Source: Chlorobiota bacterium
GTDB lineage: Bacteria; Bacteroidota; Ignavibacteria; Kapaibacteriales; UBA961
Length of the DNA: 64,000 nucleotides
Direction of reading: 5' to 3'
Assembly (NCBI GenBank): GCA_014191195.1
Contig: BJGZ01000001.1
Coordinates: 62,001-126,000, forward strand
Shown: one piece after another, positions 28,224 through 29,945 of the stretch
Numbering within the stretch: position 1 is the stretch's first letter
Layout of the letters: each line of letters opens with the position of its first letter
Program-made: the position numbers and the translations under genes
Notes under the pieces: model-generated
Told to the model about the DNA's origin: nothing
Seen by the model: only the letters and a program-made list of their open reading frames with translations
The model's database searches: none

Positions 28224-29945
28224 ATGTCCCAAGAACCAAACCAATCTGAACACTATATTGTCACTGCCCGTAAATGGCGGCCAATGACATTTGCACAGAT
28301 TGTTGGGCAAGACCACATCTCTACTACCCTAAAAAATGCGATTTTGTCTGGAAGAGTTCATCATGCTTATTTGTTCACTGGGCCAAGAGGTGTAGGAAAA
28401 ACTACATCAGCCAGAATTATTGCGAAAGCACTTAATTGTTTACAGCCCGGACCAGATGCAGAGCCATGTAATATTTGTGCATCTTGTAAAGATATTGTAG
28501 ATGGCCGTTCCATCGATGTTATTGAAATTGATGGTGCCTCAAATAATAGCGTCGATGATGTTAGAAAGTTAAGGGAAAATTCACGTTATCCGCCAGTTCA
28601 CGGAAAGTACAAGCTGTACATAATCGATGAAGTTCATATGTTATCTACTTCTGCATTTAATGCATTATTGAAAACATTAGAAGAACCTCCTCCTCATTTA
28701 ATGTTCATATTTGCAACTACAGAAGTTCATAAAGTTCCAGCAACTATTTTGTCAAGATGCCAAAGATTCGATTTTCGCAGAATGGAAATTGATAGTATTG
28801 TTAGCCAACTTAGCAAAATTGCTGTGCATGAACATATTTCCATTGATGAAGAATCGTTAATTGCAATAGCAAGGAAAGCAGATGGTTCCATGCGTGATTC
28901 TCAAAGTATTTTCGATCAGGTAAGGGCTTTTTGTGGTAATACAATTGTCTCTAGCGATGTTCATCAAGCTTTGCATTTAATTGATACCGAATTCTTTTTT
29001 AGAATTACAAAAGCTATTCGAGATAGGAATATTGCCGAGATGTTTATCATTGCTAATGAAGTGCTTCTTAAAGGATATGATATTCAAGAATGTATGAATG
29101 GTATTTTAGAGCATCTAAGAAATTTATTGACAGTGCTTGCTATTGGCTCTACAAAACTCATCGAAACTTCTTCTATTTATCATGAAATATATATTAAAGA
29201 GGCAGCATATTTTACTCAAAGCCAATTGCTGCGATTAATGAATATTATTTCTAATTCAGAACAAAGCTTGCGATATGCTACCCAACCTAGAGTTAGATTC
29301 GAACTTGCTTTAACACAAATGGCTTCTCTGGATTCTACTATAGAAATTTCTGCTTTGATAAAAGAAATTCAGTCTGGTGAATATAAATCAATTCCTGCAG
29401 CAACACATTCACGCAATGATATTACAGATATCCAGAAAAAAAAAACTCCTGAACACATAATTAATGTCGCAAATCAAGTCACCAAAGAAATACCAAGTCT
29501 TCCACAAGATTGGGATTCATTTGTAAAGACTTGTGATCCAGGTTTACAAATTTTACTTCAGTCAGTTTCGCTACAATTCAAAGAAAATACTATAAAATTG
29601 AGTGCTAAACAGCAATTTATTGCAGATCAATTACAATCCAGATCTAAAGATATTTCTGTATTAATTTCCACTTTCTTTCAAATAACTTATATCCTCCACA
29701 TAAATTGCGAAGGCTCTGTTTCTCAAGCAGCTCAGTCTCACTCTTTTCACATATCTACAGATCATATTGTACATGATATTCCAAAAACACAAAATCAAGG
29801 TGGTTTGGAATCTTTATCATCAAATGCCTCTTTCTTGAAAAAAGAAGAAAAAATAATCCCTACTCCGCCCCCTCAAAGACCTCTTAACCCAACAGAAAAG
29901 CATATAGTTGATGTGTTTGGTGCAAGAGAAATACCAATGAAGTAA
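28224..29945 (+). CDS. dnaX: DNA polymerase III gamma/tau subunit with internal slippage site
   Basis: Clamp-loader ATPase of the replisome, 573 residues from ATG 28224. Walker A GPRGVGKT at 53-60; zinc cysteines C72, C82, C85, C88; Walker B IIDEVHMLS; sensor 1 FATTEVHK; and SRC arginine finger (LSRCQRFDF). Residues after ~370 are the tau-specific tail. At codons 405-407 a run of ten A (29436-29445) encodes KKK. Slipping into the -1 frame gives Asn-Ser-TGA; losing one A gives a TAA within five codons. Either would end the protein at about residue 410, the length of a gamma form. Start chosen because residues from MSQEPN lead directly to the conserved ARKWRP motif. Confidence 0.95.
   Translation: MSQEPNQSEHYIVTARKWRPMTFAQIVGQDHISTTLKNAILSGRVHHAYLFTGPRGVGKTTSARIIAKALNCLQPGPDAEPCNICASCKDIVDGRSIDVIEIDGASNNSVDDVRKLRENSRYPPVHGKYKLYIIDEVHMLSTSAFNALLKTLEEPPPHLMFIFATTEVHKVPATILSRCQRFDFRRMEIDSIVSQLSKIAVHEHISIDEESLIAIARKADGSMRDSQSIFDQVRAFCGNTIVSSDVHQALHLIDTEFFFRITKAIRDRNIAEMFIIANEVLLKGYDIQECMNGILEHLRNLLTVLAIGSTKLIETSSIYHEIYIKEAAYFTQSQLLRLMNIISNSEQSLRYATQPRVRFELALTQMASLDSTIEISALIKEIQSGEYKSIPAATHSRNDITDIQKKKTPEHIINVANQVTKEIPSLPQDWDSFVKTCDPGLQILLQSVSLQFKENTIKLSAKQQFIADQLQSRSKDISVLISTFFQITYILHINCEGSVSQAAQSHSFHISTDHIVHDIPKTQNQGGLESLSSNASFLKKEEKIIPTPPPQRPLNPTEKHIVDVFGAREIPMK
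29436..29445 (+). other. Ten-A transcriptional slippage or -1 frameshift site inside dnaX
   Basis: Ten consecutive A in frame AAA AAA AAA A. Both alternative frames hit stops at once: AAC TCC TGA if one A is added or the ribosome slips back, and CTC CTG AAC ACA TAA if one A is lost. This is the arrangement known from Thermus dnaX, where polymerase slippage on nine A makes gamma, and functionally equals the E. coli ribosomal frameshift. No obvious downstream hairpin was seen, which favours transcriptional slippage. Confidence 0.6.

Follow-up and report, generated by a model that had tools for sequence, protein, structure and literature searches.

The dnaX gene of a Chlorobiota bacterium carries a run of ten A in the coding strand, with a stop close behind it in each of the two alternative reading frames, and RNA-polymerase slippage on this A10 tract probably yields the gamma form of DnaX beside tau, as in Thermus. 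Roughly half of the Bacteroidota sampled have an A-run cassette at the equivalent point of dnaX, and it is at this comparative level that the claim is made. The gene lies in a window of 64,000 nucleotides, the whole stretch of DNA that was analysed, and has the following features.

28224..29945, plus strand: dnaX, encoding tau of 573 aa (ATG at 28224, stop at 29943-29945), assigned from the open reading frame, Pfam and relatives
Parts of the dnaX product, in order: clamp-loader AAA+ domains, lid, domain III, linker, tau tail
29436..29445, plus strand: A10 putative slippage tract, codons 405-407 plus base 1 of codon 408
29449..29451, plus strand: TGA, first stop in the +1A (-1 ribosomal) frame
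29458..29460, plus strand: TAA, first stop in the -1A (+2A) frame
28224..29445, plus strand: predicted gamma-coding part, from the reading frames, product about 409-411 aa
29446..29942, plus strand: tau-only tail, translated when the run is A10 or A10 plus/minus 3n
Broken-run version of the A10 tract, as control sequence: AAGAAGAAG

Pfam matches to the dnaX product (PF13177, PF22608 and PF12169) define AAA+ domains at residues 29-187 and 192-238 and domain III at residues 244-379, and the gene shares 72-97% identity with its counterparts in the genus and the family. Because the Pfam domain III match ends at residue 379, the tract at codon 405 lies beyond the clamp-loader core, in the linker, where the end of gamma is to be expected. 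The tau-only tail had no Pfam match, and an Rfam scan of the dnaX region returned nothing relevant. In frame the tract reads AAA AAA AAA ACT. The original prediction had put a ten-A run at this place in dnaX, with both alternative frames closed and a product near 410 residues against 573 for tau, and all of this is seen directly in the window: one extra A gives KKKNS and a stop, for a computed product of 409 aa, and one A fewer gives KKKLLNT and a stop, for 411 aa.

In the mechanism proposed, RNA polymerase would slip on the A10 tract during dnaX transcription and produce mRNAs with varied numbers of A. Those with 10 or 10 plus/minus 3n would be translated into tau of 573 aa, and all other counts would end translation within a few codons, giving a gamma of 409 or 411 aa that lacks the tau tail, so that, as in Thermus, the clamp loader would receive both of its DnaX subunits from a single gene. 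The gamma/tau slippage reading of the original prediction is supported by the comparative sequence evidence given below, from which we infer slippage, its efficiency and the use of gamma.

Taken alone, the A10 tract of this dnaX is weak evidence and proves nothing by itself. Tracts of ten A are strongly avoided in the source genome: pattern searches of the 2.41-Mb genome found seven tracts of at least ten A on both strands, against about 96 expected from the dinucleotide frequencies of the 64-kb window (a depletion of about 14-fold), and 89 of at least nine A against about 269 expected on the same basis. Only two of these seven tracts are well within a long open reading frame. The other of these (L059:1501-1510, or G000:C1:195743-195752) is an A10 near the start of a gene for a secreted-looking VWA-domain protein, where it could serve slippage or phase variation. 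Within dnaX itself, AAA makes up 80% of the lysine codons, and a non-functional origin, in which the lysine-rich linker of an AT-rich gene happens to hold ten A and the off-frame stops fall nearby by chance, draws on the outcome of synonymous recoding: given the KKK and the codon usage of the gene, 59% of recodings contain at least nine A (P 0.59), and 7% have stops as near as those of the window (P 0.07). Since this test on a single gene is weak, the claim was shifted to the comparative level, and it is the comparison that decides.

The dnaX genes of relatives were compared, as the original prediction had proposed, and every one of the five genus-mates with data for this part of the gene keeps the A-run and the paired stops. 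Each retains A9-A10 followed by CTCCTGA, with A10 in one (N-terminal part 97% identical) and A9 in four (80-82%). The string AAA AAA ACT CCT GA is spelt identically at the site in all six dnaX genes of the genus; elsewhere in dnaX about half of the shared codons differ between the two branches of the genus, and the linkers are otherwise so diverged as to be hardly alignable between them. Both alternative frames terminate 5-8 codons from the start of the run in the same six genes, the -1A frame doing so at 6-8 codons. This conservation, like the tract, is a direct observation. Among the other family members, A9 with paired stops is kept in two and the run is lacking in four, in which no convincing substitute was found. 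The absence of the tract from 4 of 12 family members and from 33 of 55 genes of the order indicates that it is dispensable, and the several relatives without an A-run are a further point for a chance origin.

The wider sample comprised dnaX genes found by profile search in 231 genomes from 48 families, together with 80 named loci. Counted by gene and bin over the 231 Bacteroidota genes, 134 of 140 occurrences of at least nine A fall at codons +300 to +359 from the P-loop, just behind domain III, and they are A9 in 62 genes, A10 in 63 and A11 in 9, with each of the three codon phases represented. In the +160 bin 100 genes have KK, yet no run of at least eight A occurs there. The A-run cassette was found in 31 of the 48 families. 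The layout of the window, with tau in the zero frame, is present in 101 genomes (one of them with G8 instead of A), and the named genera that have it include Rufibacter, Hymenobacter, Pedobacter, Mucilaginibacter, Chitinophaga, Terrimonas, Longitalea, Proteiniphilum and Aureispira. In 30 genomes the layout is reversed: the zero frame terminates at the tract, and tau is encoded in a shifted frame. The cassette persists at high GC, though it is rarer there (21 of 66 loci above 55% GC), and it is carried even by genes of genomes whose GC content approaches or exceeds 60%.

Stop positions behind the tract were ranked against the rest of the same frame in each gene, and stops come early in both alternative frames, with mean ranks over 25 families of 0.14 and 0.225 (p = 6e-6 and 3e-8). 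Assignment of layouts required stops within 30 codons; only two of the A-run genes that have a full tau frame were lost to this filter, so that any bias from it is small. Recurrence at the same position in 31 families, GC-rich genomes included, the lack of runs at other KK sites, the paired stops and the reversed layouts together leave a chance origin for the cassette very improbable.

Some further cases were observed in the survey. G-runs stand at the same point of dnaX in L155 (codon +342, G8) and L118 (codon +325, G7), each with both off-frame stops 4-9 codons away, and are possibly a G-tract version of the cassette. L095, from a record titled Verrucomicrobia and thus outside Bacteroidota, has A9 at dnaX codon +380 with paired stops at 5 and 9 codons and 60% GC. 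The genes of family f15 (L227, L232, L236-L244) mix the window and reversed layouts and have unusually short tau tails, the open frame behind A10 being about 40-110 codons whichever frame is taken.

On a FastTree tree the window-type and reversed layouts are separated by at least 14 switches. The two closest pairs of opposite layout differ as A9 versus A10 (L300 and L302; L296 and L303, the first of each with A9), and within each pair one dnaX reads gamma-length and the other tau-length. A flip of layout by one A among close relatives would be tolerable only if both frames are expressed. Homopolymer sequencing error was considered and rejected as a general cause; it could make single cases, but not a layout that is common to several species of one genus, as the reversed layout is in genus g104 of family f39. 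The same observation bears on phase variation, by which replication slippage would alter the length of the DNA tract, so that tau would be switched on in some cells and off in others. The hypermutability of long homopolymers and the difference of one A between near relatives fit that explanation, but dnaX is a core replication gene, several g104 species hold the reversed layout in common, and genus g1 has a uniform frame instead of an on/off mix, all of which make phase variation scarcely credible here. What appears somewhat better than an even proposition is that Bacteroidota dnaX is frame-indifferent: a tract of 9-11 A would give gamma and tau from either frame, one-base indels would flip the annotated open reading frame repeatedly and harmlessly, and some lineages would have swapped in an A_AAU_UUU ribosomal cassette.

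The latter cassette was found in family f23, of the same class, where the A-run is missing in all six genes sampled (L163, L164, L165, L167, L168 and L178). At codons +338 to +365 from the P-loop, all six instead have A_AAT_TTT_AA with a -1 stop immediately after it. The cassette is preceded at 10-12 nt by GGAGG or GAGG, and about 5 nt downstream there is a hairpin of the C5/G5 type. It follows the same ribosomal plan as E. coli dnaX with a different heptamer, illustrates the form that a ribosomal cassette takes in these bacteria, and suggests that members of this class benefit from a short DnaX. It also lends some weight to ribosomal -1 frameshifting in the window gene, since it suggests that ribosomes do this job within the class. 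By that account tRNA-Lys would slip back on A_AAA_AAA and translation would stop at TGA 29449-29451, giving gamma as in E. coli. In a test for an E. coli-type heptamer at the window site, A_AAA_AAA is indeed in frame with that -1 stop, the +1A-frame stop is the nearest and most constrained, and nearly all reversed genes need the same, -1 type shift. The stimulators of such a shift are absent from the window site by direct observation: no SD-like element was found about 10 nt upstream of the tract, where the best match is 4 nt (TGAT), and no stable 3' hairpin was found (MFE -1.4 kcal/mol, z +1.09 over 65 nt). The genus likewise has no SD-like element and no conserved hairpin, with a z below -2 in one of six genes, and the median downstream-fold z over 61 A-run cassettes is -0.2. 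This absence at the window site favours transcriptional slippage, as does the maintenance of the tract at 9-11 A in any codon phase, where a heptamer would suffice for the ribosome. Early stops in both alternative frames point the same way, because a -1 shift needs one stop and never reaches the other frame. Moreover, A_AAA_AAA shifts more weakly than A_AAA_AAG in E. coli (PMC5009743). Ribosomal frameshifting at this tract is therefore considered unlikely, though a better contender than either chance or phase variation, and slippage by RNA polymerase is the preferred reading.

If RNA polymerase does slip at these tracts, Thermus-type gamma production would extend to a lineage, and probably to a phylum, with cultured genera. 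It is further implied that many short or frameshifted-looking DnaX genes of Bacteroidota would be complete tau/gamma genes. The evolutionary evidence would also speak for gamma in the debate on whether it is worth keeping. Slippage that yields a truncated product has been regarded as hard to judge by comparative sequence analysis (PMC1088944), and the paired-stop statistic offers one way of doing so.

Several systems that give a shorter DnaX from one gene are known. Caulobacter, according to work cited in PMC5009743, makes gamma by proteolysis of tau; it obtains the shorter form from a single gene, as the window gene would, but its route is post-translational and requires neither a tract nor off-frame stops. 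E. coli dnaX uses -1 programmed ribosomal frameshifting on A_AAA_AAG (PMC1088944, PMC5009743), stimulated by an upstream SD element and a 3' hairpin, neither of which was found in the window. Closer in kind is a GeneTack cluster of 17 reversed A-run dnaX genes from 12 genera, Chloroherpeton and Chlorobium included, nine of them with A10, for which transcriptional slippage was suggested (PMC3711429, 2013). These share with the window gene an A-run at the gamma/tau border and predicted transcriptional slippage, but they reach tau by a shift, their zero frame terminating at the run, whereas tau lies in the zero frame of the window gene. The suggestion in the original prediction that the case may be undescribed thus holds in part: reversed A-run dnaX genes and the Thermus layout had been described, but no account of this lineage or of a phylum-wide pattern was found in a search that most subscription papers lay outside, so that priority is uncertain. 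The nearest counterpart is Thermus thermophilus dnaX, in which A9 gives gamma by transcriptional slippage (Larsen et al. 2000, as described in PMC1088944 and PMC5009743). Both genes have a coding-strand run of 9-10 A, tau in the full-length frame and nearby stops in the two others. They belong to different phyla, with the A-run at 71% of the gene here, and slippage that is proven in Thermus is predicted from sequence in the window. The kind of cassette is thus known from Thermus; its breadth in Bacteroidota and the flipping of its frame are what is new here.
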